Shown piece by piece: positions 12,251 to 60,905 of a stretch of 64,000 bases of DNA. How positions within the stretch are numbered: position 1 is the stretch's first letter; every line of letters starts with the position of its first letter. The notes beneath the pieces were generated by a model, which was given only the letters and a program-made list of their open reading frames with translations, had not been told where the DNA came from and made no database searches. Position numbers and translations under genes: made by a program. The stretch is from Neptunicoccus cionae (GTDB lineage Bacteria; Pseudomonadota; Alphaproteobacteria; Rhodobacterales; Rhodobacteraceae), in assembly GCF_014643735.1 (NCBI RefSeq), contig NZ_BMKA01000002.1:1054001-1118000 (forward strand), given 5' to 3'.

Positions 12251-12281
12251 AAAAAAAAGAGCAGACCCGAAGGCCTGCTCT
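12251..12281 (-). terminator. Terminator of the second porin gene
   Basis: Minus strand: stem AGAGCAGGCC / GGTCTGCTCT (12281-12258) closed by a TTCG-type loop with one U-G wobble, followed by a run of T to 12251. It lies 25 bases after the stop of porin copy 2. Confidence 0.85.
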
Positions 12282-12305
12282 TCTCGAAACTTCTTCTAAG
12301 AAAAC

Positions 12306-13259: not shown

Positions 13260-13462
13260 AGTTTTCCCTCGTTAGGTTAAAAGGTGCACCTCTATCCGAG
13301 GTATCCGGAAAGAGTGTGTATGCTTTTCACTCTCCGGGCCCCGAATATCAAGCGTCTGTGCTGCGGGCAGGATGATAAGCCTGAAGTTGGTGCAATGATG
13401 CCACAGTCGTTTTCCACCCCTTGAAGCTTCCTTATATATAACAGTCCGTTCCCCCGTGCGCA

Positions 13463-13484
13463 GAATAAGAACTTGTTCGTATTC
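13463..13484. promoter_or_regulatory. 22-base palindrome, candidate operator between porin and DUF3576 gene
   Basis: Two 10-base arms, GAATAAGAAC and GTTCGTATTC, form an inverted repeat with one mismatch around a central TT. It is about 50 bases before the DUF3576 start and about 205 bases before the porin start, in the space shared by two divergent genes. There is no T run, so it is not a terminator. The size suits a dimeric repressor site. The regulator is unknown. Confidence 0.4.
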
Positions 13485-13534
13485 GCAAGGAACGGTACAT
13501 GAAAGAAACAGCTGTAAAGCTTGGGGCGTAGAGC

Positions 13535-14071
13535 ATGATGAATTATGGTTTCAAAGCAGGTCTGATCGCGATTGTAAGCGGCGCACTTGTTGGATGTGGC
13601 AGTTTCGGTAACTCGGGACGCAGCAGTGGCGGCTTTTTAAACCGGCCTGTCGCAGTGACACCGGACCCGTCCCGCGAGGATCCGTCCTCCGGCGCGATGG
13701 AACGGGCTTTGGGCGAAGCTGGTGGCGATACGGTCTCTATTTTTGACGCGCTACGCTCTCCTGATGAAAATACCAACGTCCGTGTGAATAAATACCTTTG
13801 GAGTGCGGCTCTCGAAACGCTGAGCTTCTTGCCGGTCGAATCGGCTGATCCCTTTACGGGTGTGCTGGTTATGGGCTGGGGCCGTGCGCCCGGCAGCGCC
13901 CGCCAGTACCGCGCGACTGTATTGGTGCAGGATCCTGCCCTTGATGCCCGGTCCCTGAAACTGTCGATCCAGACCCGTAACGGTCCGGCCAGTGCGGAAA
14001 CCGTGCGCCGTGTGGAAGATGCTATCCTGACCCGCGCCCGTCAGTTGCGCGTGCGCGATAAAAACCTATAA
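13535..14071 (+). CDS. DUF3576 family lipoprotein
   Basis: A 178-residue predicted lipoprotein. The signal segment is followed by a lipobox-like LVGCGS (cysteine about residue 22), then a low-complexity linker and a globular domain with NKYLWSAALETL and SADPFTGVLVMGWG, which match the alphaproteobacterial DUF3576 family. Function is unknown; an outer-membrane or periplasmic anchor is inferred from the lipobox. It is followed by a terminator and then leuS, lptE and holA. DUF3576 next to leuS and lptE hints at an envelope-assembly role, but nothing shows it directly. Confidence 0.85.
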   Translation: MMNYGFKAGLIAIVSGALVGCGSFGNSGRSSGGFLNRPVAVTPDPSREDPSSGAMERALGEAGGDTVSIFDALRSPDENTNVRVNKYLWSAALETLSFLPVESADPFTGVLVMGWGRAPGSARQYRATVLVQDPALDARSLKLSIQTRNGPASAETVRRVEDAILTRARQLRVRDKNL

Positions 14072-14102
14072 CGCGGGTGATACCGCCCGTTGAAGTTAAT
14101 GA

Positions 14103-14127
14103 CGCCGGGCTGATTGTCCGGCGTTTT
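14103..14127 (+). terminator. Short terminator after the DUF3576 gene
   Basis: A six-base-pair GC stem (CGCCGG 14103-14108, CCGGCG 14118-14123) is followed by TTTT. It is only 20 bases before the leuS start. Being short, it may attenuate rather than fully stop transcription into leuS. Confidence 0.55.
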
Positions 14128-14146
14128 GCTGTGTAAGGAAGAAAAC

Positions 14147-16684: not shown

Positions 16685-17168
16685 CAGACGGATATTTCTG
16701 GCGCTCGCCCTTTCGGGCGGCGTCGCGGCCTGCGGTTTTGAACCTGTTTACCAACAGGGCACAACTGCGGCCAACCTGCGGGGCCAGATTGCGATTGATC
16801 TGGTTAAAGGGCGCAACGGGTTTGAATTGCGCCAACAGCTTGAGGACCGTTTGGGCTATGCCAGCGGCAACGCGCCTTATGTTCTAAGCTTTTCACTAGC
16901 GCTGAGCGAGAGCGCCCTTGCCGTGACCGAAGACGAAGGTACGACTCGCACCAGTCTGACAGGCACAGCGAAGTTCACCGTGCGGGACAGCGCGACACAA
17001 CAAGTCGTTTTTGAAGATAGCGTGAAGAACGTGACCTCCTATGGCTCGACCTCTGAAACCTATCCTTCCAGTGTGGCGGAGCGGGATGCGAATACCCGTC
17101 TGGCCAAGGCGCTGGCCAATCAGATCGCGCAACGCATTGCGATTACGTCGGACGGCTGGGCGGGATGA
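16671..17168 (+). CDS. lptE: LptE, LPS-assembly lipoprotein
   Basis: A 165-residue lipoprotein. Signal peptide [20 protein letters not shown] carries the lipobox cysteine, and GFEPVYQQG just after it is typical of alphaproteobacterial LptE. LptE plugs the LptD barrel that places LPS in the outer leaflet. It starts inside the 3' end of leuS and overlaps holA by four bases; leuS-lptE-holA is a conserved order in proteobacteria, which supports the call despite the low sequence conservation of LptE. Confidence 0.85.
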
Positions 17169-18187
17169 AACTGTCTGGTGCGCAGGCGTCAGCTTTCATC
17201 GCCAAACCCGAAGGTGCACGCGCGGGTATTCTGCTTTACGGTATGGATGCTATGCGGGTTTCTCTCAAGCGTCAGCAGCTTATCAAGGCGCTGGTCGGCC
17301 CGAGCGCGGAAGAAGAGATGCGGCTGGAGCGGATCAACGGTGCCGATCTGCGCAAGGAACCAGCTCGTGTGCTCGATGGCCTGAAAGCGCAGGGATTCTT
17401 TCCCGGCCCTCGTGTAGTGTTTATCGAAGGCGTGACCGATGGGCTAACGGACGTGATGGCCACGGCCTTGAAGGAATGGACTAAGGATGACGCCACCCTT
17501 GTGGCGACGGCTGGCAGCCTAAACGCCCGTTCCAAACTGCGCAAAGCCTTTGAAAGTGACCCGCGCTCTGTGGCGATTGGCATTTATGACGATCCACCGG
17601 GACGCGCAGATATTGAGCGGATGGCGAAAGAAGCCAACCTCGCGCAGCTGTCACAGTCTTCTATGGATGATCTGCTGACACTGGCCCGCACGCTTGATCC
17701 GGGTGAAATGGCGCAGACGATCGAAAAGCTGGGCCTTTATAAATTCCGCGACGACACCCCGATCACCGGTGATGATATTGACGCCTGCATGCCCGCCACA
17801 GCGGATGCGAACCTTGATGATGCGGTTCATGCTGCCGCCGAAGGGCGCAGCGGGGATGTGGTTCCAACGCTTAAACGGCTTGCCGGACAGGGCGTCAATC
17901 CAACGGCATTGTGCATCGCAGCCACCCGTCATTTCCGCACCCTTCACGCCGCCGCGACCCATCCCCAAGGCCCCGACACCGCCCTGTCCCGCGCCCGTCC
18001 GCCCGTATTTGGACCGCGCAAGGACCGTTTGGTGCGACAGGCCCAACGGTTGGGCGCCGCGCGATTGGAACGGGCGCTTGATGATCTGATGAACACCGAT
18101 CTGACGTTACGCTCTGCCAAGAAACCACCCGAGATGGCGCTGGTGGAACGGGCCTTTATTCGCATATCAATGTTAAGACGGTCTTAG
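17165..18187 (+). CDS. holA: DNA polymerase III delta subunit
   Basis: A 340-residue clamp-loader subunit. It has a RecA-like N-terminal domain with GILLYGMDAMRVSLKRQQLI, RINGADLRKEPARVLDGL and PGPRVVFIEGVTDG, and a helical C-terminal domain ending MALVERAFIRISMLR. Delta opens the beta clamp during clamp loading. No Walker A is expected or seen. It overlaps lptE by four bases. Confidence 0.9.
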   Translation: MKLSGAQASAFIAKPEGARAGILLYGMDAMRVSLKRQQLIKALVGPSAEEEMRLERINGADLRKEPARVLDGLKAQGFFPGPRVVFIEGVTDGLTDVMATALKEWTKDDATLVATAGSLNARSKLRKAFESDPRSVAIGIYDDPPGRADIERMAKEANLAQLSQSSMDDLLTLARTLDPGEMAQTIEKLGLYKFRDDTPITGDDIDACMPATADANLDDAVHAAAEGRSGDVVPTLKRLAGQGVNPTALCIAATRHFRTLHAAATHPQGPDTALSRARPPVFGPRKDRLVRQAQRLGAARLERALDDLMNTDLTLRSAKKPPEMALVERAFIRISMLRRS

Positions 18188-18198
18188 GGAGAGAACAG

Positions 18199-18798
18199 AT
18201 GTATACAGTGGTCGGATCACCGAAAACACGCGCGTTTCGGGTTGTTTGGGCGATGGAGGAACTGGGGCTTGAGTATGATCTCGTGTCAGAGCCGCCGCGC
18301 GGGGAAACCGCGTCGGCGTTGAACCCGACAGGCAAGATTCCCTGTCTGAAAGTCGGCCATGCGACGATCATCGATTCTGTAGCGATCCTCCAGTATCTCG
18401 CGGATAAACACGGTGCGTTGACCTATGAAGCGGGCACGCTGGAACGGGCCGAACAGGACAGTTTTACCCAGTTCATTTGCGACGAGATCGACGGCGCGCT
18501 CTGGACTGCGGCGCGTAATGATTTCGTCAATCCCGAAGAAAAACGGGTCGCGGCGATCAAGGACGTGCTGGTTTGGGAAATGGAACGGTCTGTCAAAGCG
18601 TTGGAGCAGCGGTTGGGCGATAGGGAGTTCCTGATGGGCGACAGGTTCACTGTGCCGGACATTCTTCTAACCCATTGTGCAGGCTGGATGCGCGGCACTG
18701 GTTTCCCGCTGGAAAGCGACACGCTGCGGGCCTATGTGCGCCGCAATATCGAACGCGAGGCTTACAAAAAAGCCAGTGCGGTGCGCAAACCGTCCTAA
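18199..18798 (+). CDS. Glutathione S-transferase family protein
   Basis: A 199-residue cytosolic GST fold protein. The N-terminal thioredoxin-like half begins MYTVVGSPKTRAFRVVWAME, with TGKIPCLK holding the cis-proline and IIDSVAILQYLAD the glutathione-contacting Asp-Ser. The helical C-terminal half ends near GDRFTVPDILLTHCAGW. The conjugation or peroxidase substrate is unknown. It starts 11 bases after holA and ends in a four-base overlap with the convergent flavoprotein gene. Confidence 0.85.
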   Translation: MYTVVGSPKTRAFRVVWAMEELGLEYDLVSEPPRGETASALNPTGKIPCLKVGHATIIDSVAILQYLADKHGALTYEAGTLERAEQDSFTQFICDEIDGALWTAARNDFVNPEEKRVAAIKDVLVWEMERSVKALEQRLGDREFLMGDRFTVPDILLTHCAGWMRGTGFPLESDTLRAYVRRNIEREAYKKASAVRKPS

Positions 18799-19991
18799 GT
18801 TTTCAGGGCCTTGGCAGTGCGCGCCGCTGCCAGACCTGCGGCGCGTCCCGTGGCCAGACACGCAGTGATCAGATAGCCGCCGGTTGGTGCCTCCCAGTCG
18901 AGCATTTCGCCCGCGCAAAAGACACCTTTGGCCGCGACAAGTTCGAAATCTTCCGAGAGTGATCTCCAGCGTAGCCCACCTGCCACAGAAATCGCCTGAT
19001 CCAAAGGCGCTGTGCCAGTGTAGGGAATTGTTAAGCCTTTCAGTGTAGACCCGAGTGTACTGCGGGGTGTCTGGCGTGCGAATTCCAGAAACAACGCGGT
19101 TTTGGCGGGGTCCAGACGCAGGGTCTTGCGCAGGATATTGGTCAGGGAAGTTTTGGCACCCGCCTTGTCGATCCGTTCCTGAAGCTGTGCTGCGCTTAGA
19201 TCAGGGAACAGGTCTACCTGCAACTCTGCGCCCGCCCGAAACGCGGCCGAGAATTGATAGATTAGTGAACCTTCCAGTCCTGCACGGGACAGGACAGCCT
19301 CGCCGGTTGCGGTTTTGCCGCCGCAGGTTATGGCAATTGACTTAAGGGGGCTACCGAAACGGGGCTCCATATGGGGTGACCATTCAACTGTGATGCCCAT
19401 GTTGGACGGCGCAAATTCGGTGATTTCAGCGCCTTTCGCAGCCAAAAGCGCGGTCCAGGCCCCGTCAGAGCCGAGCCGCGCCCAGCTTGCACCACCAAGC
19501 GCGAGAACGGCGACTTTTGGCGTAACAATCCGCGTCCCCTCAGGCGTTTCGAATTGAAACCGAGAGCCTTCCCACCCGGTCCAGCGCCATCGGGTGCGCA
19601 GGTCGACGCCTTTATTATTCAACCGAGCCAACCAGTTGCGCAGTAGGGGGGAGGCTTTCATGACTTCTGGAAACACCCGACCGGATGATCCCGTGAACAC
19701 GGTTTGCCCCAAATCCTCGGCCCAGCGTTTCACATGCTCGGGGCCGAATTCTGACAGACACGCGTGCAAGTGTTCTCCAGCAGGACCGAAAGCCGCCAGA
19801 AACGGTTCGTCCGGTTCGTCCTTGGTAAGGTTCAAACCGGATTTTCCTGCCATCAAAAACTTGCGCCCGACAGAAGGTTTTGCCTCGGCCAGCAGCACCG
19901 ACAACCCTGACTGGACGAGCATTTCTGCCGCCATCAGGCCCGCCGGACCGGCGCCGATGACCAGCGCATCGGGTGTTTGATCTGGTGTCAT
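18795..19991 (-). CDS. TIGR03862-type (HI0933/YhiN-like) flavoprotein
   Basis: A 398-residue FAD-binding protein. N-terminal dinucleotide site ALVIGAGPAGLMAAEML, then GRKFLMAGKSGLNLT, VFTGSSGRVFPEVMKAS and a closing second FAD motif with GVFCAGEMLDWEAPTGGY. This pattern matches the TIGR03862 subgroup of HI0933-like oxidoreductases. Neither partner nor substrate is known for the group. It lies eight bases after the crotonase gene on the same strand. Confidence 0.85.
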   Translation of the reverse strand: MTPDQTPDALVIGAGPAGLMAAEMLVQSGLSVLLAEAKPSVGRKFLMAGKSGLNLTKDEPDEPFLAAFGPAGEHLHACLSEFGPEHVKRWAEDLGQTVFTGSSGRVFPEVMKASPLLRNWLARLNNKGVDLRTRWRWTGWEGSRFQFETPEGTRIVTPKVAVLALGGASWARLGSDGAWTALLAAKGAEITEFAPSNMGITVEWSPHMEPRFGSPLKSIAITCGGKTATGEAVLSRAGLEGSLIYQFSAAFRAGAELQVDLFPDLSAAQLQERIDKAGAKTSLTNILRKTLRLDPAKTALFLEFARQTPRSTLGSTLKGLTIPYTGTAPLDQAISVAGGLRWRSLSEDFELVAAKGVFCAGEMLDWEAPTGGYLITACLATGRAAGLAAARTAKALKT

Positions 19992-44979: not shown

Positions 44980-46341
44980 TCAACTCTGTCCGGTCAGAAC
45001 TGCCATTGGGGCGGTAAAGCACCACAACAGACCGTCCGCCGCAAACTCGCGCTGCGTTTCACCTGATGTGGTAGTTTCCAGCAAAAGGCCTGTCACTTGC
45101 GACCCGAACCCAGATCCAGTGGGTGGCGTGACGGGGGGACCGCCGGTTTCATGCCAACACATTTTCAGATCAGGTTTTTCACCGCTGGTGATTTCCCATG
45201 ACAGCTCTACCCTGCCGCTTTCTTGCGAGAGCGCGCCGTATTTCGCAGCATTCGTCACCAGTTCGAAAATCGCCATACCCACCGCCTGCGAGACAGATTC
45301 GTCCAGATGCACAGTTGGACCGGAGAGGCTGGTCTGGGTGTCAGCTACGTCGACAAGATGGGTAAACTGGGCCCGCGCCAGCTCTTCAAGATCTACATAA
45401 ACGCTGCCGCTATTAAGTAGAATATCCTGATTGGACGCCAGACTCCGCAGCCGGTTGGAAAAGATCGGGAGAAAAGCTTCCCCGTGATAGCGCCTGCCGG
45501 TCTGGCGGGCGATCACTTCGACGATGGTCAGCAGATTTTTCGAACGGTGATTGATTTCGTGAAGCAGGGTTTGGATTTTCTTTTCGGATTCTTTGCGCAC
45601 CGTGATGTCACTGTACATGGTGACAAATCCGGTATGGGTCCGGTTTTCATCCCGAATGGCAGCAAAGCTGCGTTCTACGTTAATTTTCTGGCCGTTCTTG
45701 TGCAGCCTGAAGGACTCACTGCGCAAAACTTCCCCCGCTATGACATCTGGAATACGCGCATCAAGGGCCGGCAATTCTTCGGCTGGCAGCAAAAGCTGAT
45801 TGAACCGTTGGCCCAGTACTTCTTCTCTGGTGTAGCCGAACAAACGCTCTGCGGCGGGGTTCCAGGCGTGGATTTTAAAGTCCTTATCAGACGATACAAT
45901 CGCATGGGGTGAGGATTCCACGAGACTTCTGAACTCGTCGCTGTCCCGCCTCCGGTCCACCAGTTCCCGTTCAAAGGCTTGGCGTTGCTCGTTCTTGAAG
46001 ATGCAGAAGTAGGCTTCGCTCAACTCGCCGTCTGTGCGAACTGCACGCGCATTGACATAGACGCCGAAACGGGTGCCATCCGGTCTTTCCAAATCCAGCG
46101 ATATTTCCGTGAACTCGCCTTCCAGCAAAAGGAGTGGGCGCAAATGGGTTTCAAAAAAAATGCGGCTTGCCCGTGTCAGGATGTCCACGACGCGGGTTTC
46201 CCCGTCGAGCGACACCTTATCCCGTTCCAACCAGGACCGCAGGGTTGCGTTCGTTGTGGTGATCACCCCGTCGCCGTTTATTACCATAAGACCACCGGGC
46301 CAGAGGTCCAGATCGGTGGGGGGGCGGATATTGTGGATCAT
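44980..46341 (-). CDS. PAS-PAS HWE-type sensor histidine kinase, coupled to RsbQ-type hydrolase
   Basis: A 453-residue cytoplasmic kinase with no membrane segment. A first PAS-like domain (about 1-120) and a second PAS domain (about 138-250, with NPAAERLFGYTREEVLG) precede the HWE/HisKA_2 dimerisation helix LLHEINHRSKNLLTI (phosphate on H265 expected), then FELVTNAAKYGALS and the WHETGGP-type motif CWHETGGPPV of HWE kinases. Its start overlaps the stop of the RsbQ-like gene (46338-46341), so the hydrolase is translated first. The PAS domains could read the hydrolase's state, as in Bacillus RsbP with RsbQ. No response regulator is adjacent. Confidence 0.88.
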   Translation of the reverse strand: MIHNIRPPTDLDLWPGGLMVINGDGVITTTNATLRSWLERDKVSLDGETRVVDILTRASRIFFETHLRPLLLLEGEFTEISLDLERPDGTRFGVYVNARAVRTDGELSEAYFCIFKNEQRQAFERELVDRRRDSDEFRSLVESSPHAIVSSDKDFKIHAWNPAAERLFGYTREEVLGQRFNQLLLPAEELPALDARIPDVIAGEVLRSESFRLHKNGQKINVERSFAAIRDENRTHTGFVTMYSDITVRKESEKKIQTLLHEINHRSKNLLTIVEVIARQTGRRYHGEAFLPIFSNRLRSLASNQDILLNSGSVYVDLEELARAQFTHLVDVADTQTSLSGPTVHLDESVSQAVGMAIFELVTNAAKYGALSQESGRVELSWEITSGEKPDLKMCWHETGGPPVTPPTGSGFGSQVTGLLLETTTSGETQREFAADGLLWCFTAPMAVLTGQS

Positions 46342-47144
46342 TGCGCTGCGGTTGGCTGCAAAAAGGCCGAGATTGCGCGGGTGGTTTGGGCTGGAAAGCT
46401 CATGTGGGGGCAGTGGCCTGTCGCATCCAGCAGGACCTGTTCGCCCCGTTGCAGGTTTTCCTCAAGCCATGCACGCACCGTGTCTGGCACAAGGATGTCA
46501 TCGCTGCACTGAAGCACCAGTGTGGGCTGCGCGACTTGCTTCACATCCTCACGGTGATCAGTCAAGAAGGTCACTTTGGCAAAGTGTTTCGCAATGTCGG
46601 GATCGGTCTGGCAAAAGCTCTCGGTAAGTTCTGCGCCCAGATCGGGACGATCGGGCGTACCCATGATCGCAGGGGCCATATCGCTGGCCCAACCCAAATA
46701 ATTGACCTCTAGTATGTCAAGCAGCCCAAGCAGGTCGCTTTCCTCAAACCCGCCGGAATAATCGCCGTCATTCATGTAGCTCGGGGAGGGGCAGATCATG
46801 ACATTCTTTGCGATCAGATCGCGGCGGCGGTTTGCAGCCAAAGCGACAGTCATCGCGCTGACCGAGTGGCCGACTGCAATCACATCGCTTAGTTCGAGTT
46901 CGTCAAGAATATCTATCAAATCGTCCGCATGACCGTCTAGCGTGGCATATCGCGCGCGGTCGTAGTGCTCAATTGCAGACTGTCCATAGCCCATCAGATC
47001 GTAGGTGATGACTTTGAAACGGGACTCAAACGTGGGGGCCATCTTGCGCCACATGCCGCTGTCACATCCATAACCGTGAAGAAAGATGATTGCGCTCTCG
47101 CCGGTGCCGGTCACTTTAACGGCGCAACGCTCAACTTTTGACAT
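46338..47144 (-). CDS. RsbQ-type alpha/beta hydrolase
   Basis: A 268-residue alpha/beta hydrolase of the RsbQ/KAI2 type. Nucleophile S94 is in VIAVGHSVSAMTV; the acid is D215 or D216 in LQCSDDILVP and the histidine is H244 in DATGHCPHMS, near the positions in Bacillus RsbQ. Family marks include FLHGYGCDSGMW and YDLMGYGQS. I start at 47144, with AGGGAGAG upstream. RsbQ activates the PAS-domain phosphatase RsbP in Bacillus; here the partner gene, overlapping by four bases, is a PAS-domain kinase. The natural ligand is unknown. Confidence 0.9.
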   Translation of the reverse strand: MSKVERCAVKVTGTGESAIIFLHGYGCDSGMWRKMAPTFESRFKVITYDLMGYGQSAIEHYDRARYATLDGHADDLIDILDELELSDVIAVGHSVSAMTVALAANRRRDLIAKNVMICPSPSYMNDGDYSGGFEESDLLGLLDILEVNYLGWASDMAPAIMGTPDRPDLGAELTESFCQTDPDIAKHFAKVTFLTDHREDVKQVAQPTLVLQCSDDILVPDTVRAWLEENLQRGEQVLLDATGHCPHMSFPAQTTRAISAFLQPTAAQ

Positions 47145-47385
47145 CTCACTCTCCCTTATTGGTCGTACAATTGATAAGTGATCGCATTTGGTCCCACCAG
47201 TCCGGTTGCATCTGACGACACAGGTCCACAATTGTTAAGCCTTCCCAATGCTCATCTTCCGATTGTGGGTGGCCAAGAGCGGTTTTCCGCCCGAATCTTT
47301 ACCAGATTAGAAAAAAACTGTTGTGAATTTCAAGAATTAACCTTGGCTCACGGTTTGTTGAAACGATACGGCGCGCTTCGCGTAA

Positions 47386-48255
47386 TCACCGGTTCAGAAG
47401 TTCCCAGAATTCAAGCGCTGGCCCGCGCAAGCTGTCCGGTTCCTGTTTGATCTTGCGCAACTCCCGCTGGCTTGGTGATTGTGCGGGCACGAAGAACTCT
47501 ACCCCGTCGGGTTGGTTGCGCACAGCGTCGAAAGGCAGAATGCTGGCGCCGAAACCGCGTCTGACAAAGGACAGAATGGCGGTGGTGTTGCGTGCTTCCA
47601 GTACACTGGCCACGCGCAGCGCCTCAACCGTTGGATCGTTTACCAGATCACACAACGGGTTAGAGATTAGCGGCTCAAGTTGCAGCAAGTCCCAGCCGGA
47701 GGCCCCTTGCGTGTCGGAATGGGCCCGATGGATGGCGCCGTCTTCGGCACAAACAATCCCAAGATCATCTGATAGGATACGAACGCCCTCTAACGGATCG
47801 CCGGGCCTTGCAGAGACAATACCGATGTCGGCCTCGTCGCGGTGCAGTCGCGCGCGCACAGCGGCACTGTCCACATCGCTGATTTCAATGCGTACTTGGG
47901 GTCGCATTTTTCGAAAGGCGTCGATCACATCTGGCAGCAGCGCCACGGTGGCTGAAGGCACGGCAGCAATGCGAACGATACCCGCGGTGGACAAGGCGTG
48001 CCGCCGGATCGCATCAACACTGTTGTCAAAGGCTTCGGTGGCGCGCCGGGCCTCGTCCAGCACCAGTTGGCCAAGGGGGGTCAGACGGCTTTTGCGGTCG
48101 GTTTCAAACAGGGGGGCGCCGACCTCTTGTTCGAACTGGGCCAGCATCATGGAAATGGCTGATGGCGTGCGGCCCAGCACGGCTGAGGCACCGGATAAAG
48201 TGCCTTGCGCGGCGACAGTTGCAAACGTGCGGAGCATCTCAAGTTTTACTGACAT
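47386..48255 (-). CDS. LysR family transcriptional regulator of the adjacent catabolic operon
   Basis: A 289-residue LysR regulator: N-terminal winged helix (LEMLRTFATVAAQGTLSGASAV, then GRTPSAISMML) and a C-terminal ligand-binding domain. It diverges from the aldehyde dehydrogenase gene across 90 bases. Two TTCA-N7-TGAA sites lie in that gap, one at the lysR start codon, which suggests autorepression and ligand-dependent activation of the operon. The inducer is probably an operon substrate or intermediate. Confidence 0.9.
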   Translation of the reverse strand: MSVKLEMLRTFATVAAQGTLSGASAVLGRTPSAISMMLAQFEQEVGAPLFETDRKSRLTPLGQLVLDEARRATEAFDNSVDAIRRHALSTAGIVRIAAVPSATVALLPDVIDAFRKMRPQVRIEISDVDSAAVRARLHRDEADIGIVSARPGDPLEGVRILSDDLGIVCAEDGAIHRAHSDTQGASGWDLLQLEPLISNPLCDLVNDPTVEALRVASVLEARNTTAILSFVRRGFGASILPFDAVRNQPDGVEFFVPAQSPSQRELRKIKQEPDSLRGPALEFWELLNR

Positions 48256-48269
48256 TCAATTTTCCTGAA
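48255..48269. promoter_or_regulatory. LysR-type site 1 (T-N11-A) at the lysR start
   Basis: TTCAATTTTCCTGAA has TTCA and TGAA arms seven bases apart, giving a T-N11-A core. It touches the lysR start codon, where bound protein could block the gene's own expression. It has the same arms and spacing as a second site 30 bases away. Confidence 0.5.
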
Positions 48270-48284
48270 AGCAACTTCAATTTA

Positions 48285-48299
48285 TTCATAGTGACTGAA
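48285..48299. promoter_or_regulatory. LysR-type site 2 (T-N11-A) toward the operon
   Basis: TTCATAGTGACTGAA repeats the TTCA-N7-TGAA arrangement of site 1, with centres 30 bases (about three helical turns) apart. The site is about 47 bases before the ALDH start, where a LysR activation site is commonly found. Confidence 0.5.
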
Positions 48300-48345
48300 A
48301 TCCCCCTGTGGGTCTAGACCAGAGCCAAGCAAATAGGAGATTGTC

Positions 48346-49797
48346 ATGACTGATCGTACGCAACTTTATATTGATGGTTCCTGGACCGACGGGGCGAGCG
48401 AAATAGAAAACCGCAACCCTTCTGATACATCCGATTTGATCGGCATGTATGCACAGGCGGATGCCGGACAGTTGGACGCAGCGCTTGCTGCGGCGCGTCG
48501 TGCCCAGCCCGCATGGTGGGTCGCTGGTATCCAGAAGCGTCATGATGTGCTGATGGCAATCGGTACAGAGCTGATGGCCCGCGCCGAAGAAATCGGCCGC
48601 ATGTTGTCCCGCGAAGAAGGCAAACCGCTGGCTGAAGGCAAGGGCGAGGTTTACCGCGCCGGACAGTTCTTCACCTATTACGCCGCTGAATGCCTGCGCC
48701 AACATGGTGATCTGGCCGAAAGCGTGCGTCCCGGTATCGAAATCGACGTGCGCCGCGAAGCTGTCGGCGTGGTGGCGATCATTTCACCTTGGAATTTCCC
48801 AGTGGCAACGCCCGCATGGAAAATCGCCCCTGCGCTGGCATTCGGCAATGCGGTTGTGTGGAAACCGGCCAATGTGACACCGGCCAGTGCCATAGCCCTT
48901 ACCGAAATCATCGCCCGTCAGGACATCCCCAAAGGTCTGTTCAACCTTGTGGCCGGTCCGGGCCGCGATGTGGGCCAGCGTCTGGTGGAAGGCGGGCAGG
49001 TGGATGCGATCAGCTTCACCGGTTCGGTTCCCGTGGGCCGTGGCATTGCCGCTGCTGCTGTGCAGAATATGACCAAGGTTCAGATGGAAATGGGATCGAA
49101 GAATCCGCTGATCGTGATGGATGATGCGGACCTTGATCTTGCCGTGACCCATGCTGCGGGATCGGCCTTTGGCGGGACAGGGCAGAAATGCACTGCGGCC
49201 AGCCGCCTGATCGTTCACAGCAGCCTGCACGATGCGTTCGTTGAGAAACTGGTCGCAGCCGCAAAGGCACTGAAGGTCGGTCACGCGCTGGAAGACGGCA
49301 CGCAAATCGGTCCTGTCGTCAGCGAAAGCCAGTTGAACCAGAACCTCGAATATATCGAAACCGGCAAGGGCGAAGGGGCAGAATTGCTCTGTGGTGGTGA
49401 GCGTCTGGAGATGGCGACGCAGGGCTACTATCAAGCGCCTGCGGTATTTGCCAACACCCGCAACGACATGCGGATCAACCGTGAAGAAATGTTCGGTCCA
49501 ATTACCGCCGTGCAAAAGGTGGACAGCTACGAAGAGGCGCTGTCGGTTGCCAATGACAGCCAGTTCGGCCTGACCGCTGGTATCATGACAACTTCACTGG
49601 CCCGTGCCAGCCACTTCCGCGCCAACATGCGGGCGGGAACCGTGATGGTGAACCTGCCAACAGCGGGCACCGATTACCACGTCCCCTTCGGCGGTCGTGG
49701 CGCGTCGAGCTTTGGTCCGCGCGAACAAGGCACCTATGCGGCCGAGTTCTACACCACTGTGAAAACGGCCTATGTTTCGGCCGGAGAGCCAGCATGA
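48346..49797 (+). CDS. Aldehyde dehydrogenase, first gene of the LysR/BCCT operon
   Basis: A 483-residue NAD(P)-dependent aldehyde dehydrogenase. Catalytic cysteine in [13 protein letters not shown], the general base glutamate in [13 protein letters not shown] loop [11 protein letters not shown], and ISPWNFPVA near residue 145. These are all intact. It resembles semialdehyde dehydrogenases. GGAGA lies upstream of the ATG. It overlaps the M19 gene by four bases. The substrate is probably a semialdehyde made from whatever the BCCT protein imports, an inference. Confidence 0.9.
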
Positions 49798-50780
49798 CCT
49801 ATCTGATCGACGGTCTGCAATATGCTAACTGGTCAGAGAAGATCTTTCGCGAGATGCGGGCAGGGGGCGTGGATGCTGTCCACGTCACCATCACCTATCA
49901 CGAAACATTCCGCGAAACGGTTCTGGTAATAGAACAATGGAACCGCTGGTTTGAACAGTTCCCCGACCTGATCTTTCAGGGCCGCACCGCAGACGATGTG
50001 CGCCGCGCCCGTGAAACCGGCCGCACGGCAATCTTCTTCGGATCGCAAAATCCGTCCTGCATCGAAGATGACATCGGATTGGTTGAGGTGCTGCACACGC
50101 TCGGCCTGCGGTTTATGCAACTGACGTACAACAACCAATCGCTGCTGGCCTCTGGCTGTTATGAGGACGAGGACACCGGTCTGACCCGCATGGGGCGTCA
50201 GGTGGTGGCCGAGATGAACCGTGTCGGTCTGGTGGTGGACATGAGCCATTCGGGTGAGCGGTCGACCTTTGAGGCGATTGAACACTCGTCCCGACCCATC
50301 ACCATCAGCCATGCAAATCCTGCAAGCTGGCACGCCGCCCTGCGCAACAAATCCGATGATCTGCTGCGCGCGCTGGGCGAAAGCGGCGGGTTTCTGGGGC
50401 TGTCGATCTATCCCCACCATCTGAAAGACGGTGGCCAATGTTCGCTGCAATCATGGTGCGATATGGCAGCGCTGGCGGTTGATCTGGTGGGCGCAGGGCA
50501 GGTCGGGATTGGCACGGATCTGTGTCAGGACCAGCCTGACAGTATCGTTGAATGGATGCGGGTCGGACGCTGGACCAAGGCCATCGACTATGGCGAGGGC
50601 AGCGCGGATAACGCCGGTTTCCCGCCCATGCCTGTCTGGTTCCATGACAACCGCGATCTGGCAGGTATCCGCGCCGGTTTGCGGGCCGCAGGACTGGACG
50701 AGGCCACAACAGACGGGGTGATGGGCGACAGCTGGTACGCCTTTTTTGATACAAGCTTCGGGGTGCAATCCGTCCCTTAA
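49794..50780 (+). CDS. M19 dipeptidase-like hydrolase with an altered metal site
   Basis: A 328-residue member of the renal dipeptidase (M19) family. Two histidines are retained in VVDMSHSGE and ITISHANPA, and the GIGTDLCQD aspartate is present. The N-terminal metal pair, normally HxD in a DGHND-type motif, is replaced: the start reads YLIDGLQYANWSE. The bridging glutamate position reads GSQNPSC, with glutamine. This leaves perhaps one metal site, so dipeptidase activity is doubtful; another C-N hydrolysis is more likely. It is coupled to the ALDH gene upstream. Confidence 0.82.
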   Translation: MTYLIDGLQYANWSEKIFREMRAGGVDAVHVTITYHETFRETVLVIEQWNRWFEQFPDLIFQGRTADDVRRARETGRTAIFFGSQNPSCIEDDIGLVEVLHTLGLRFMQLTYNNQSLLASGCYEDEDTGLTRMGRQVVAEMNRVGLVVDMSHSGERSTFEAIEHSSRPITISHANPASWHAALRNKSDDLLRALGESGGFLGLSIYPHHLKDGGQCSLQSWCDMAALAVDLVGAGQVGIGTDLCQDQPDSIVEWMRVGRWTKAIDYGEGSADNAGFPPMPVWFHDNRDLAGIRAGLRAAGLDEATTDGVMGDSWYAFFDTSFGVQSVP

Positions 50781-50834
50781 GACAATTATTTCGCGGCCAG
50801 CAGGCCATGTGCAATCGCTTTGTGGAGGACTATG

Positions 50835-52400
50835 ATGAGCGATATAAACAGAACAACAGGCCAGCCAACCGGCCGGATAGACAAGGCGCTTTTCGCCATC
50901 ACGGGAGGGTTCATCGCGCTGTTTTGCGCCTATGCTTTCTTTAATATCGACGGGCTGTCCGCGCTGGTAGACAGCAGCTTTGCCTTCTCGGCCAAGTATT
51001 TCGGGCTCTACTGGCAGATCCTTCTTCTGGCGACCTTTCTGATCGGTCTGGTGCTTTGCGTGTTGCCAGGATCAAAGACGGTCATGGGTGGTTTGACCCT
51101 GCCGGAGTTCAGCAGCTTTAGCTGGGGGTCCATGATCATGTGTACCCTGCTTGCAGGTGGCGGCGTGTTCTGGGCTGCCGGTGAGCCGATTGCCCATTTC
51201 CTGTCCACACCGCCCCTGTTTGGCGATCTGAGCGGTGACACAGAGGCCCGCGCCAACGTAGCGCTCGCCCAGAGCTTTCTGCACTGGGGCTTTCTGGCTT
51301 GGGCGATCCTCGGGTCGCTGACCACTGTGATGCTGATGCATTACCACTATGACAAAGGTCTGCCGCTGGCACCGCGTACCCTGCTGTACCCAGTCTTTAA
51401 AGAGCGTGCCTTGCATGGCCCAATCGGCCTGATTGCCGATGCGTCCTGTGTGATTGCGGTTGTGGCGGGCACAGTCGGGCCGATCGGGTTTCTGGGGCTG
51501 CAACTGTCCTACGGCCTGAACGAGCTGACCGGCATTCCGGATAATTTCGCCACCCAATCCATCGCCATTCTGTCACTGGTTGCGATCTATACGGTCTCTG
51601 CGATCACGGGGTTGGCCAAGGGCATCAGACTGTTGTCGCAGATTAACGTGATCCTTGCTGTATTCCTGTTGGCATTCATGCTGATTGCTGGCCCGACCAC
51701 AGAGATTTTCGCCGGTTTCTTTGGCGGTATGCAGGTCTATGTGACCCATTTCTTTGATCTGACCTTGTATCGCGGTGATGCCGGACTGTTCGGGGATGCG
51801 GGCTGGCTTGGCTGGTGGACTGTGTTTTTCTGGGGCTGGTTCATGGGATATGGTCCGCTGATGGCGATTTTTATTGCCCGTATCAGCCGCGGTCGCTCTA
51901 TCCGTCAAATCATCCTGACCCTGTCAGTCATGGCGCCGCTGATCACGAACTTTTGGTTCACAATCATCGGCGGCTCCGGCATCTTCTTTGAGATCGCAGA
52001 ACCTGGTGTCATCTCCGGCCCGTTTGAAGGCTTCAACCTGCCTGCCGGACTGTTGGCGATTACCCAAGCGATGCCAATGGGAATGATCCTGTCGGTTCTG
52101 TTTCTGGTGCTAACCATGTGTTTCGTGGCTACGACCAGCGACTCCATGAGCTATGTGATCTCGACCACTATGTCAGACGGGGAGCCGTCCAGCGCGATGC
52201 GGGCCTTTTGGGGGCTGGCGATGGGCGTGATGGCACTGATCCTGATCTCGACAGGGTCGGGGGGTATCGGCAAGCTGCAAAGTTTCATTGTTGTAACGGC
52301 TGTGCCTGTGTCCCTTCTGCTGCTACCGTCATTGTGGGACGCGCTGCGGATCACGTGGATGCTGGGGCGCAAAACGAAGGCCGCCGCCGCGCAAGCTTAG
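50835..52400 (+). CDS. BCCT-family transporter
   Basis: A 521-residue membrane protein with about 12 segments. It belongs to the betaine/carnitine/choline (BCCT) family, seen in WGSMIMCTLLAGGGVFWAAGEP, the central FFWGWFMGYGPLMAIFIARIS (with the W-G-W type motif) and FLVLTMCFVATTSDSMSYV. BCCT proteins take up quaternary ammonium or sulfonium zwitterions. I start at 50835, with GGAGG at a proper distance. A hairpin separates it from the next gene. Its ligand is the probable inducer or substrate of the operon. Confidence 0.92.
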   Translation: MSDINRTTGQPTGRIDKALFAITGGFIALFCAYAFFNIDGLSALVDSSFAFSAKYFGLYWQILLLATFLIGLVLCVLPGSKTVMGGLTLPEFSSFSWGSMIMCTLLAGGGVFWAAGEPIAHFLSTPPLFGDLSGDTEARANVALAQSFLHWGFLAWAILGSLTTVMLMHYHYDKGLPLAPRTLLYPVFKERALHGPIGLIADASCVIAVVAGTVGPIGFLGLQLSYGLNELTGIPDNFATQSIAILSLVAIYTVSAITGLAKGIRLLSQINVILAVFLLAFMLIAGPTTEIFAGFFGGMQVYVTHFFDLTLYRGDAGLFGDAGWLGWWTVFFWGWFMGYGPLMAIFIARISRGRSIRQIILTLSVMAPLITNFWFTIIGGSGIFFEIAEPGVISGPFEGFNLPAGLLAITQAMPMGMILSVLFLVLTMCFVATTSDSMSYVISTTMSDGEPSSAMRAFWGLAMGVMALILISTGSGGIGKLQSFIVVTAVPVSLLLLPSLWDALRITWMLGRKTKAAAAQA

Positions 52401-52407
52401 ACTAAAT

Positions 52408-52433
52408 GGTATGGCGCAGGCACGCGCCATACC
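52408..52433 (+). other. Intercistronic RNA hairpin
   Basis: A perfect ten-base-pair stem (GGTATGGCGC 52408-52417, GCGCCATACC 52424-52433) with a six-base loop follows the BCCT stop by eight bases. There is no T run, so it is more likely to stabilise or separate transcripts of the operon than to end transcription. Confidence 0.6.
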
Positions 52434-52466
52434 CTCACCGAATTTGTGACGTAGGGGGGAAACACG

Positions 52467-54143
52467 ATGTCAGTTATTACACCGATGAACACACCGGACG
52501 TGGCCCGCTTCATGCGCCCTGCCGCAGAAGTGATGCGTCTGGCGCGGATGGGATGTGGCCACCCGACACGGTTGTCTTTCCTGCGCGTGATGCTGCGTCG
52601 CCTGAAATGCGCTGACTGGCAGATCGACCGTCCGGTCTGGAATGTGGATGCCAAAGGCGTTGGCCACGGCGTTTACCGCGTCCGCAGCGCAGATCGCAGC
52701 TACAGCCTTGTGGCGTTCGCCCATGACCTGCCGCCCGAAATGCGGTCGGACAGGGTGATCGCCACCGCTTGGGATGCAACCTTCGCCCTGTTTGACGGAG
52801 AGCCAAGCGCGGAAGATATTGCACGGCTGGCTGAAAATGTCCCCTATCAGGAAGCCGGTCGCGTCACGTCAAAAGAGCTGACGCTCGCCCGCGCCAACCG
52901 TTCCGTGCGTCTGTTTAACCATGTGGTTGAGGCACTTTCAGAAGGTCTCCAGCCCGATCCGGCGGAAATCCGATCCGTGGGCTATCTGATGCGCACAACC
53001 GCAGTCTATGGTTCTGGAAAATTCGGCGCATCTGATCGGAGTTATATCGCAGAGCGCCCCGAACTCGCAGCGCCGTTTCAGGTAGAGATGCTGACCGTTT
53101 GGCTGATCCGCGCCTTCACGGTGGATATCGTCGAACACATTGCGGCTGCAAAAGGCGGGGCGCAGGCGGTGAAACTTGCGCAGGAAACCCGCCGTAGCCT
53201 TGGTGTGGGAAACTCCACCGGGCTTGGTATGGCCCCGTTTATCGTGCGCCATCCCGTGCTGCTGAACAACTGGATGATGGCCCGCGAAGAAGCACTGGCG
53301 CGGGTGCGGGCGCAGGGAATTGCTGACCCGCAGGCGGTTCACGGGCTGACCAGCGCACTGCACTGCGCAATAGAAAATGCCAAAATATGGCAGTCCGAAC
53401 ACCCCGTGCAAAAGGGCAAACTGGAAGAATTGCGCCGCGATCTGGGCGTGCTGGAAGACGGTCTCGGGACTTGGGACTGGTCGGTAGAACTGCCTTGGAA
53501 TGCACTCTGGTTGTGGGGGGCTGCGACGCTCGGCCTTGAAGGGCAAGAGGCACTTTTGTCTTTGATGCTCGAACCCCATGGCGCATTGATCGACGATCTG
53601 GCGAACCACATGGGTGCGGATGAAGCGGCAAGTTTTCATATCAACGGCGCCATGTCGGTAGCCAAGCTGCGCGATATTATCGAAACCGATTACGGCTGGG
53701 CGCTCAAGATCGACTTTACCACCCCTGAAAACGTGGCGCGGTTCTGGTATGTCTCCGAAGAAAAACTTGAACCCCGACTGGGCGAACGCGCCACTGAAGA
53801 AGGCGCAACACTGGAACAACCGTTGTGTATCGCCCGATTGATTTCCGAACTTTATGACACGGTCAAAAATTACGACGCAGCCAAACCGGTGGCAGCTTTG
53901 TTGTTGTCCCATCCGGACCATCGCTATGCCGTCCGGCGCGCCCAGATTGCGCTATCCCATCCTTATGCAGAGGTGCAGGACAACCTGATCGCAGCCGATA
54001 TGCTGCCAATTGACCTGCTGCGCTGCAAGCTGGCGTTTTTCGGGGCGAGCCAGTTCGATCCCCGGTCTGACAGATGGGTGCGGATCAACCTGTTTGCGGG
54101 CGCCCCTTTCCCCGACGAAATCAAAGAGGAGGCCAGCGCATGA
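52467..54143 (+). CDS. Unknown 558-residue protein in the LysR/BCCT operon
   Basis: I do not recognise this family by motif. It is a soluble, 558-residue protein with no signal or membrane segment and a mostly helical composition. Conserved-looking stretches include GCGHPTRLSFLRVML (about 29-43), SVGYLMRTTAVYGSGKFG (about 171-188) and NWMMAREEALARV (about 270-282). It sits between BCCT and DUF3726 and overlaps the latter by four bases, which implies a joint function. It could be the first catalytic step or a subunit of it, as no ring-opening or demethylating enzyme is otherwise present in the operon. Confidence 0.85.
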   Translation: MSVITPMNTPDVARFMRPAAEVMRLARMGCGHPTRLSFLRVMLRRLKCADWQIDRPVWNVDAKGVGHGVYRVRSADRSYSLVAFAHDLPPEMRSDRVIATAWDATFALFDGEPSAEDIARLAENVPYQEAGRVTSKELTLARANRSVRLFNHVVEALSEGLQPDPAEIRSVGYLMRTTAVYGSGKFGASDRSYIAERPELAAPFQVEMLTVWLIRAFTVDIVEHIAAAKGGAQAVKLAQETRRSLGVGNSTGLGMAPFIVRHPVLLNNWMMAREEALARVRAQGIADPQAVHGLTSALHCAIENAKIWQSEHPVQKGKLEELRRDLGVLEDGLGTWDWSVELPWNALWLWGAATLGLEGQEALLSLMLEPHGALIDDLANHMGADEAASFHINGAMSVAKLRDIIETDYGWALKIDFTTPENVARFWYVSEEKLEPRLGERATEEGATLEQPLCIARLISELYDTVKNYDAAKPVAALLLSHPDHRYAVRRAQIALSHPYAEVQDNLIAADMLPIDLLRCKLAFFGASQFDPRSDRWVRINLFAGAPFPDEIKEEASA

Positions 54144-54865
54144 GTGTCGATCCCCACGACCAGACCCGCGGCGAAACCGCCCCGCAGTTCGCAGACAGCG
54201 AACATGCGCCCCTGTCTTGCAACGAGGCCGCCGCGCTGTGCACAAAAGCCGCCCGAGGCGTCGGAATGAGCTGGGGCATGGCCGAAGAAGCAGGTTTCGC
54301 TGCCTCGTGGTTGGTGTCCCACGGTATCGACGGCCCGACCCAGTTGCGCAGCCATCTGGAGCAGGCTGACGGGTTGGAGTGGGAAGACCTCTGCCCCGCA
54401 GTTACGCCCGGTGCATGGCAGAATGCGAAAGGGCAGGCGGCCTGCCCGATCATTCTTGGCGCGACGCTGTGTGACTATGCGGATCTGCCGGAAGGGCCAG
54501 CGCCGGACTGCGAGATTTCTCTGGGTACGGTTAATTCTCCGATCCTTCTGGTGCCGTTCCTGTCCGAGCTTGGCCGTAAAAACGACCTGTCGTTTATGCT
54601 ATGCTGGGACGGAGGGCAATTGCGCATCGACGGAACGGAAACATGGCTCAGCGCGGCGGAAAAATCCTTAAGCGTTGCGAAACTTGCGCTGACTCTCGCC
54701 GTGGATAGCACGCCCTGTCACCAACCGTGCCCAAACGAAACGCCCAACGCCCAAACCACCGCTGCAACCGTTGCAGCACTGGCGAATTTTGCCATGCGCA
54801 CCACTGTGCCAGCCACAGAAGAGTCGCGCGCTGGCGCCGGATCAACCCTCAGTGACAATGATTAA
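54140..54865 (+). CDS. DUF3726 family protein, partner of the 558-residue protein
   Basis: A 241-residue protein of the DUF3726 family, recognised from SCNEAAALCTKAARGVGMSWGMAEEAG followed by ASWLVSHGIDG. The family is of unknown function and often found beside metabolic genes in Rhodobacterales. GAGGAGG lies before ATG 54140, and it overlaps the preceding gene by four bases. No catalytic motif is visible. It probably acts with the 558-residue protein. Confidence 0.82.
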   Translation: MSVDPHDQTRGETAPQFADSEHAPLSCNEAAALCTKAARGVGMSWGMAEEAGFAASWLVSHGIDGPTQLRSHLEQADGLEWEDLCPAVTPGAWQNAKGQAACPIILGATLCDYADLPEGPAPDCEISLGTVNSPILLVPFLSELGRKNDLSFMLCWDGGQLRIDGTETWLSAAEKSLSVAKLALTLAVDSTPCHQPCPNETPNAQTTAATVAALANFAMRTTVPATEESRAGAGSTLSDND

Positions 54866-54878
54866 TAAAGGACCTGTC

Positions 54879-55244
54879 ATGACACTCTCCCGCCTCAACC
54901 CCGGCCCCCGTATGAGCCAAGCCGTCACCATCGGAAACATCGCGTTTCTGGCTGGGCAGGTGCCCGACGATCTGACCGCGGACATTACAACCCAAACCCG
55001 TCAAGTGCTGGCGAAACTGGATAAAGTTGTAGCCGATCTTGGCGCATCAAAGGCCGATATCGCATCCGTGCAAGTCTGGTTGGCCAATATGGAAGACTTT
55101 CAGGGCATGAATGCTGTCTGGGACGAATGGGTTTCAGCCGAAGCCCCGCCTGCACGGGCCACAGGCGGCACATCCCTCGCCCGCCCCGGCATGCGCGTCG
55201 AAATGATCGCCGTCGTAGCCCTGCCAGACGCTATGGCAGCCTAA
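54879..55244 (+). CDS. RidA family reactive enamine/imine deaminase
   Basis: A 121-residue Rid-family protein. It begins SRLNPGPRMSQAVTIGN, with FLAGQVPDD, the VQVWLANMEDF strand and the substrate arginine of RidA in ARPGMRVEMI. These trimers hydrolyse enamines and imines. It is the last gene of the operon, 13 bases after DUF3726, and suggests that an imine or enamine arises in the pathway. A strong terminator follows. Confidence 0.88.
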   Translation: MTLSRLNPGPRMSQAVTIGNIAFLAGQVPDDLTADITTQTRQVLAKLDKVVADLGASKADIASVQVWLANMEDFQGMNAVWDEWVSAEAPPARATGGTSLARPGMRVEMIAVVALPDAMAA

Positions 55245-55252: not shown

Positions 55253-55291
55253 AAAAAGCCGGAGCAGCAAAATCCGCTGCTCCGGCTTTTT
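55253..55291. terminator. Bidirectional terminator between RidA and tRNA-Arg
   Basis: A perfect symmetric hairpin (arms 55253-55268 and 55276-55291, including AAAAAGCC and GGCTTTTT ends). On the plus strand it ends the BCCT operon with five T; on the minus strand it ends the tRNA transcript, whose 3' end touches base 55291. Confidence 0.9.
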
Positions 55292-55367
55292 GGTGACCCC
55301 GGCAGGATTCGAACCTGCAACCTGCCCCTTAGGAGGGGGCTGCTCTATCCAGTTGAGCCACGGGGCC
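55291..55367 (-). tRNA. tRNA-Arg (anticodon CCT)
   Basis: Minus-strand gene of 77 bases with an encoded 3' CCA. The cloverleaf is complete: acceptor GGCCCCG with CGGGGTC, D arm GCTC/GAGC, anticodon stem GCCCC/GGGGC with loop CTCCTAA (anticodon CCT), T arm GCAGG/CCTGC with TTCGAAT, discriminator A. It reads AGG codons. The terminator follows directly. Confidence 0.95.
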
Positions 55368-59486: not shown

Positions 59487-60905
59487 TTATGGGAGTATGT
59501 CGCTCAGCCGGAGAAGGGCGATCCGTTCTACCTGCTTGCAAGCCGTTGCCAGTTCTGTGTCGCGGTCGTTGTGGATACGGGTTTTAAAGGCTGTCAGGAT
59601 ATCGTCCTTGGTCAGCCCCTTCACCGCAATGATGAACGGAAAGCCGAATTTTCCGGTGTATTCCTTGTTAAGCGCCTGAAAGGTTTCCCGTTCCTCATCC
59701 GTCAGCGCGTCCAACCCTGCCGAAGCCTGCTCTGATGTGCTCTCTGCGGTCAGTTGTTTGGCAGCGGCCAGCTTGCCCGCCAGATCGGGGTGCGCTTGCA
59801 AGACGCCAAGGCGCAGTTCGTCACTGGCACTGCGGAACACACGGCAGAGGGCAGAATGCAAGCCAATGGCGGTGTTGTGGGCGGGGCCAAGTTCCAGCCC
59901 GTGCGCGCCTTCAGCGATCCAGGGGGAGTGTTCAAAGATGCTGCCGTAGTGGGACACGAATGTGTCTTTGTCCATTTCGGTGGGGACTGTTTCGGCGTGG
60001 ACAGGGGGGTGGTTTTCTTGCCAGTGTCGCGCGATGTCGATGCGCCTTGCGTACCAGACGTCCTGCTTGGCTTTGACATACTCCACAAAGCGTTTGAGGG
60101 ACTGGATGCGACCGGGCCGTCCAATCAGCCGACAATGCAGGCCGATGCTCATCATCTTCGGCGCGCCCGCTTCGCCTTCGGCATAAAGCGCGTCGAAACT
60201 GTCTTTGAGATAGGTGAAGAACTGGTCGCCCGAATTGAACCCCTGCGCAGAAGCAAATCGCATGTCGTTGGCATCAAGCGTGTAGGGAATGATCAGTTGG
60301 TCACGCCCCTGATGTTCGCGCCAGTAAGGCAGATCGTCATCATAGGTATCCGAACAATACTCAAACCCGCCTTCTTCGGACACGATATCCACGGTATTTG
60401 CCGAACAGCGCCCCGTATACCAGCCGCGGGGACGTTCGCCGGTGACTTCGGTGTGAAGGCGGACGGCCTCTTCCAGATCGGCCCGTTCCGACTCCTTTTC
60501 GTAATCCTTGTATTCGATCCATTTCAATCCGTGGGAGGCGATCTCCCAGTCTGCGGATTGCATGGCTGCAACTTGATGCGGGGAACGCGCCAATGCGGTG
60601 GCGACGCCGTAGATGGTGACTGGAATATCCGCTCCGGTGAACAAGCGGTGCAGCCGCCAGAAACCGGCGCGGGCGCCATATTCATACATGCTTTCCATGT
60701 TCCAGTGGCGCTGTCCCGGCCACGGTTGCGCGCCGACCACTTCGGACAGGAAGGCCTCGGAGGCCGCATCACCGTGCAGCAGGCAGTTTTCGCCGCCTTC
60801 TTCATAGTTCATCACGAATTGAACCGCGATTTTGGCGTTGTTCGGCCAGTTTGCGGCAGGCGGATTAGGGCCGTAGCCCTGCATATTGCGTGGATATCGG
60901 TTCAT
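59487..60905 (-). CDS. puuE: PuuE-type allantoinase fused to OHCU decarboxylase (UraD)
   Basis: A 472-residue two-domain enzyme. Residues 1-300 match the cofactor-free allantoinase PuuE of the polysaccharide deacetylase fold (NYPEEGG-type start as NYEEGGENCLLHGD, ASHGLKWIEY, GWYTGRCSANT). Residues 315-472 are a UraD-type OHCU decarboxylase, with QAHPDLAGKLA and TGKFGFPFIIAVKG. OHCU decarboxylation gives (S)-allantoin, which the other half opens to allantoate, so the fusion joins two successive steps of urate breakdown. The divergent HIU hydrolase makes its substrate. Confidence 0.9.
   Translation of the reverse strand: MNRYPRNMQGYGPNPPAANWPNNAKIAVQFVMNYEEGGENCLLHGDAASEAFLSEVVGAQPWPGQRHWNMESMYEYGARAGFWRLHRLFTGADIPVTIYGVATALARSPHQVAAMQSADWEIASHGLKWIEYKDYEKESERADLEEAVRLHTEVTGERPRGWYTGRCSANTVDIVSEEGGFEYCSDTYDDDLPYWREHQGRDQLIIPYTLDANDMRFASAQGFNSGDQFFTYLKDSFDALYAEGEAGAPKMMSIGLHCRLIGRPGRIQSLKRFVEYVKAKQDVWYARRIDIARHWQENHPPVHAETVPTEMDKDTFVSHYGSIFEHSPWIAEGAHGLELGPAHNTAIGLHSALCRVFRSASDELRLGVLQAHPDLAGKLAAAKQLTAESTSEQASAGLDALTDEERETFQALNKEYTGKFGFPFIIAVKGLTKDDILTAFKTRIHNDRDTELATACKQVERIALLRLSDILP

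Follow-up and report, generated by a model that had tools for sequence, protein, structure and literature searches.

An operon of Neptunicoccus cionae with a conserved U558–DUF3726 protein pair, probably serving the catabolism of an N-methylated ring betaine

Homarine (N-methylpicolinate) is presumably degraded by the products of an operon labelled homABCDER, to which the genes treated here may correspond. A hom operon for homarine catabolism is said to have been described by Ferrer-Gonzalez et al. in Nat Microbiol in 2026. In the present work, we analyzed a 64,000-nucleotide stretch of the genome of Neptunicoccus cionae (contig NZ_BMKA01000002.1, positions 1,054,001 to 1,118,000; the whole stretch is referred to as the window), in which a divergent LysR gene is followed by genes for an aldehyde dehydrogenase (ALDH), an M19-like protein, a BCCT transporter, an unrecognised protein of 558 residues (U558), a DUF3726 protein and a RidA protein. 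We consider it probable, with appreciable room for doubt, that this operon serves to break down a ring betaine with an N-methyl group, homarine being the likeliest candidate, and that it is a variant with a BCCT transporter of its own and with RidA in place of the Ldh_2 enzyme of Ruegeria-type operons. According to PMC12817926, marine phytoplankton produce homarine, which Ruegeria pomeroyi depletes in a matter of hours. A literature search on homarine gave no title on hom genes among the matches listed, and the nearest one, PMC13390433, only cites the homarine study; it reports in passing that N-methylglutamate dehydrogenase (Mgd) takes part in homarine catabolism.

The operon and its counterparts in other genomes

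An earlier reading, made from the sequence alone, had proposed a seven-gene unit with a divergent LysR gene. All of these genes were found where it had placed them, and each family that it had named was matched by profile searches. The features are as follows.

47386..48255, minus strand, divergent: LysR-type regulator, candidate homR-like; PF03466 (LysR_substrate) 78.2 bits, PF00126 (HTH_1) 54.1 bits; found in this position in relatives as well
48255..48299: putative LysR binding region, with TTCA-N7-TGAA at 48255-48269 and more TTCA and TGAA half-sites at 48276-48299; 17-sequence alignment
48346..49797, plus strand: ALDH; PF00171, 531.7 bits
49794..50780, plus strand: M19-like protein; PF01244, 227.9 bits (cut-off 26); without the usual metal ligands
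about 50832..52400, plus strand: BCCT transporter; PF02028, 477.8 bits (cut-off 27)
52408..52433, plus strand: hairpin between BCCT and U558 (GGTATGGCGC...GCGCCATACC); RNA fold; no T-run behind it
52467..54143, plus strand: U558, unrecognised 558-residue protein
54140..54865, plus strand: DUF3726 protein; PF12525, 91 bits (cut-off 22.1)
54858 or 54879..55244, plus strand: RidA/Rid-family protein; PF01042, 88.3 bits (cut-off 27.3)

ALDH and M19, as well as U558 and DUF3726, overlap by ATGA. RidA has two candidate starts, of which one overlaps the end of DUF3726 by 8 bases and the other lies 13 bases beyond it. A search of GTDB contigs for U558 yielded 403 relatives, of which 80 were kept as loci (L numbers denote fetched loci), and the 53 of them with wide flanks form the neighbourhood tally, in which families were counted within 8 kb of U558. 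Alignment A1 comprises the window and 51 of the 80 loci. ALDH, M19, DUF3726, RidA and BCCT were all found near U558 in 33 of these 53 loci (two of the 33 carry Ldh_2 too), and this recurrence argues that the gene set did not come together by chance; in the remaining 20, parts were absent or swapped. DUF3726 was present in 53/53 loci and M19 in 52/53. The importer was BCCT in 40 loci and an OpuAC-type ABC system in five (PF04069 in L033), both types being known for betaines, and BCCT was present in all 33 RidA loci. RidA only was found in 31 loci, Ldh_2 only in 7, both in 2 and neither in 13 (Fisher p 0.019, kinship ignored). Furthermore, the RidA/Ldh_2 state changed at least seven times on the U558 tree, a quick tree of 85 rows with some long branches that excludes L084, U558 scores under 450 bits and poorly flanked loci. 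These findings suggest that RidA and Ldh_2 tend to swap for one another and thus provide two ways to finish an N-methylimine.

The properties of the individual enzymes were compared with those of characterized families. The NCBIfam models nearest to the ALDH were those for alpha-ketoglutaric semialdehyde (NF042993; 504.4 against a cut-off of 770) and 2,5-dioxovalerate dehydrogenase (500 against 750), so that, judged by profile scores below both cut-offs, the enzyme leans toward C5 keto-acid semialdehydes. The nearest solved relatives of the BCCT protein were the trimethylamine, choline, DddT and BetP transporters, and those of RidA were PSPTO_0102 (9bk1) and 3k12; RidA passed PF01042 and scored 58.7 bits with the detoxifying hydrolase model TIGR00004, below its cut-off of 106.25. 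At the catalytic place of Ldh_2, SHG was found in 34 of the 45 matches in the loci, including the Ruegeria-type ones, and ICGL in the other 11 (L022, L025, L026, L030, L045, L047, L049, L051, L075, L079 and L145); nine aligned proteins of the latter type have SHTCTSLG where others have SYNCG. Two types of Ldh_2 thus serve the operon. Among the SHG-type proteins compared with solved structures, those of L063 (195 bits) and of L138 of the Ruegeria genus (188 bits) were nearest to delta1-piperideine-2-carboxylate reductase 1wtj, the next hit being 140 in both cases, while the margin for L117 was slight. Reductases of this type also form N-methyl amino acids, with methylamine and 2-oxo acids as the starting compounds.

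Genome surveys (matches at E <= 0.001) detected U558 in 53 of the 385 genomes of a class sample, in 177/394 of the family to which a Ruegeria sediminis genome belongs, and in 52/54 of its genus, from which the presence of U558 in R. pomeroyi DSS-3 would be expected. Five main-copy loci of the Ruegeria genus were fetched (L135-L139), and each of them has the arrangement LysR, then ALDH, M19, U558, DUF3726 and Ldh_2, with a BCCT gene behind the five enzyme genes in L135. The family sample has LysR with the same five enzyme genes in two loci, L142 and L144. Five enzyme genes with one LysR regulator in Rhodobacterales hosts, together with the reported link to Mgd (PMC13390433), make these relatives similar to the hom operon, but the window differs in that RidA takes the place of Ldh_2 and the operon includes a BCCT gene. 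Five catabolic genes and one regulator are counted in L135-L139, and the same number in the window when BCCT is disregarded. In gene number, the Ruegeria-genus loci fit the name homABCDER, of which the sequence-only reading had been reminded, and the genes may be the same. Other layouts in Ruegeria were those of TM1040, with BCCT inside the operon and Ldh_2 last, and of Ruegeria sediminis (L045), with BCCT, RidA and an ICGL-type Ldh_2. Close to the operon of TM1040 lies a four-gene cluster of the sarcosine-oxidase type, and DMSP demethylation genes adjoin the U558 copy of P. inhibens, which indicates a setting of osmolyte catabolism in those genomes.

The range of carriers extends further. Four have small genomes of 1.2-1.4 Mb and fetched stretches with 28-36% GC, being SAR11-like in size and GC only; all four carry M19, U558 and DUF3726 in a row, and two of them (L115 and L117) add Ldh_2, OpuAC-type importer genes and ALDH. 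A row of U558, a DUF3726-sized ORF and M19 is present on pSymB of S. meliloti (L131, about 10001-18866) and in L124. In L131, where U558 has 31% identity, other ORFs read, by eye, like an aminotransferase and an ABC importer of the polyamine type, and this locus probably has the same core and another substrate.

The U558–DUF3726 pair and the atypical M19 site

The statement of the sequence-only reading that the 558-residue protein is unrecognised held, since no Pfam or NCBIfam family matched U558 above cut-off, and the structural model of the protein (pLDDT 82.6, pTM 0.86) gave no clear match in structure comparison. Its partner gene, DUF3726, adjoins U558 in 43/43 genomes where DUF3726 was found, and the two are fused in four loci of one lineage; they probably act as a pair, with U558 as a candidate for the main subunit of a ring-activating or ring-opening enzyme. 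A fusion-guided model of the complex was dropped because alignment A3 seemed to place DUF3726 fragments on the U558 part.

DUF3726 was folded alone from alignment A4 (62 rows, for the most part selected from a list of 105 ORFs), and the resulting model (pLDDT 91.2) matched Ldh_2 structures, that is, the type-2 malate/lactate dehydrogenase fold in a shortened form. It shares this fold with Ldh_2 but is about 90 residues shorter and lacks SHG, the catalytic motif of that family. In an hhalign profile comparison spanning 65 columns (prob 32, E 5e-4), a match that would be weak on sequence grounds alone, a gap fell at SHG of the Ldh_2 profile, and Ldh_2 was not among the Pfam matches of the 62 DUF3726 members. 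Since the catalytic motif is missing from its Ldh_2-like fold, DUF3726 is unlikely to be a stand-alone enzyme of the first step, so the earlier proposal that the unknown proteins may perform this step has to be narrowed accordingly. A literature search found no paper mentioning DUF3726, and none on PA5396 together with dimethylglycine.

The M19-like protein passes the Pfam profile of the M19 membrane dipeptidases but differs from them in that the usual metal ligands are replaced. Residues were counted in 112 sequences (the window, 110 from the loci and one from S. meliloti). Position 85 is Gln in 112/112, whereas 3id7 and GliJ have a Glu there in the alignments, presumably the bridging metal ligand, and position 8, presumably the place of the N-terminal His of His-x-Asp, is Leu in 112/112, although the alignments to 3id7 and GliJ stop short of the N-terminus. 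The two-metal site with a bridging Glu and an N-terminal His-x-Asp is thus lacking, while H152, H173, R184 and D242 are invariant in all 112. The nearest solved relative, 2i5g, is named an amidohydrolase and has Gln at the same place. The absence of the usual ligands from every sequence implies that the protein is not an ordinary dipeptidase. As a consequence, of the semialdehyde, amide-like bond and imine that the sequence-only reading had predicted from the enzyme types, the amide-like bond has to be reconsidered, because an amide hydrolase can no longer be assumed.

Regulatory region and neighbouring genes

The gap between LysR and ALDH measures 90 bases and, together with the LysR start codon, carries TTCA-N7-TGAA and further half-sites. 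In an alignment of 17 intergenic regions (the window and 16 relatives), the columns ATTCA...CTGA and TGACTGA were largely conserved, as would be expected of a LysR target, and the region is a putative binding site. The strong hairpin between BCCT and U558 has the core TGGCGC/GCGCCA. Comparable stems that differ in their letters were present in the same gap of L001, L003, L004, L008, L017 and L067, the outer pairs having changed on both strands of the stem (6 of 16 relatives inspected, some stretches not spanning the gap). As no T-run follows it in the window, it is perhaps an element of mRNA processing or stability.

Directly beyond RidA lies a tRNA-Arg(CCT) gene (55291-55367, minus strand), whose 3' end points toward the operon. 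The flanks of the operon vary among genomes, so that the unit may be a movable cassette. On the other side, an ORF at 44980-47231 (minus strand) reads by eye, with no family search made, like a PAS-type histidine kinase. It is directly preceded by an alpha/beta hydrolase gene (Abhydrolase_6), presumably RsbQ-like, and this pair also adjoins the operon in L017. Farther away, an ORF at 59487-60905 (minus strand) resembles, again by eye and with no search, a fusion of an allantoinase of the polysaccharide-deacetylase type with an OHCU-decarboxylase-like part.

Proposed pathway, alternatives and significance

Betaine-type importers, an ALDH near C5 semialdehyde models and a terminal RidA or imine reductase fit a route in which an N-methylpyridinium ring is opened, oxidized and freed of its imine. 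In such a pathway, the betaine would be imported by BCCT, and a ligand would let LysR turn on the operon. U558 and DUF3726, acting as one enzyme, would then de-aromatise and open the pyridinium ring to give a C5 (or C6) semialdehyde, and the M19-like protein might assist them or take a one-carbon piece off the nitrogen. The semialdehyde would be converted to a dicarboxylate by ALDH, and RidA would finally hydrolyse an imine of the 2-(methylimino)glutarate type to 2-oxoglutarate and methylamine, whereas in Ruegeria-type operons Ldh_2 would reduce it to N-methylglutamate for subsequent action of Mgd. The order of reactions, the substrate and the chemistry are those that would best suit the gene families. 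The trigonelline tgn pathway is similar in using a ring betaine, a semialdehyde dehydrogenase and removal of a one-carbon piece from the nitrogen, but it employs a two-component flavin monooxygenase, a family not found among the operon proteins (Pfam, NCBIfam).

The idea of the sequence-only reading that this is a ring-betaine operon related to homarine has gained from the alternation of BCCT with OpuAC-type ABC importers, the LysR and five enzyme genes of the Ruegeria genus, the proximity of Ldh_2 to 1wtj and the report on Mgd (PMC13390433), all of it indirect evidence for the proposed substrate. A route through N-methylglutamate and Mgd would agree with the reductase-like Ldh_2 of relatives, the window having RidA in its stead. 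Several findings weigh against this reading. As had been observed earlier, no oxygenase is recognisable among the operon proteins, nor is any known ring-opening enzyme (Pfam, NCBIfam), and profile, sequence and structure searches gave no relative of known function for U558. The presumed identity with the hom genes is based on gene count. In 13 of the 53 loci neither RidA nor Ldh_2 is nearby, and of the two with both, one is Ruegeria sediminis L045. The 11 Ldh_2 proteins with ICGL in place of SHG may not do the same reaction, and for Ldh_2 of the SAR11-like L117 the score with 1wtj hardly stands out (134.5 bits, the next being 132.6). Finally, some carriers (Acidocella, Paracoccus, Gemmobacter, Mesorhizobium and Aminobacter) are not obviously marine, and distant U558 relatives have a different importer, so that different members of the family may act on different substrates.

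The last point bears on a reading that we regard as unlikely, though with a real share of the probability, in which the enzyme family and its logic are the same and the window clade uses another N-methyl or quaternary betaine (trigonelline, stachydrine or another ring or chain betaine). Some genomes hold two subfamilies of U558 side by side, and distant U558 proteins adjoin other importers, so the window clade, which the quick tree sets apart from the Ruegeria clade, could act on a different compound. However, within the Ruegeria genus the common type of U558 (801-862 bits) occurred in 49 genomes, the window type (1017-1020 bits) in 3 and both in none of the 52 carriers (genomes of unspecified completeness), and this absence of coexistence favours one shared function, as in replacement by an equivalent. 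As for trigonelline, growth of S. meliloti on it depends on pSymA, according to PMC4207669, whereas its distant U558 relative is on pSymB; for this reason, and given the identity of 31%, S. meliloti was not used as a guide to the substrate.

It is improbable, in our estimate, that the M19-like protein itself is the missing oxygen-using or hydrolytic ring opener, with a mononuclear metal at H152, H173 and D242 (2-His-1-carboxylate) and with U558–DUF3726 acting elsewhere. The replaced bridging Glu and missing His-x-Asp, the invariance of the three residues and the constancy of M19 in the flanked loci, as well as its place beside U558 in the distant S. meliloti and L124, would agree with this, but the metal is a prediction from residues, the Gln shared with 2i5g shows that loss of the ligand is not special to the operon, and L119, L121, L126, L140 and L141 have U558 with no M19 in range. 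Slightly less probable still is an O2-free hydrolytic route, in which addition of water to the ring would give a C6 semialdehyde of the N-methylaminomuconate type, processed by ALDH and then RidA as in the 2-aminomuconate pathway. The combination of ALDH and a Rid protein resembles that pathway, and a 2-aminomuconate deaminase is a distant Rid match (35.5 bits); against it, no decarboxylase, hydratase or tautomerase is present among the operon proteins (Pfam), and the involvement of Mgd reported in PMC13390433 points to a C5 N-methyl amino acid.

The homarine idea is likely right in kind, in which case the window would hold a RidA/BCCT variant of a known pathway. The novelty lies in the constant pairing of U558 with DUF3726, a protein of predicted Ldh_2 fold, in the departure of the M19 site from the canonical one and in the prediction that end products differ between the two versions. 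More tentatively, and with less than even confidence, we propose that U558 and the degenerate Ldh_2-fold DUF3726 constitute a novel type of enzyme, able to open N-methylpyridinium rings with no recognisable oxygenase, flavin or cofactor domain, in an operon with two chemical versions, one with Ldh_2 leading to N-methylglutamate and one with RidA, as in the window, leading to 2-oxoglutarate and methylamine. How the homarine ring opens is not evident from these genes, and U558–DUF3726 offers a precise two-protein target for this missing first step. From the exchange of RidA for Ldh_2 it can be predicted which bacteria would release methylamine and which would retain the nitrogen as N-methylglutamate, and this difference is measurable.

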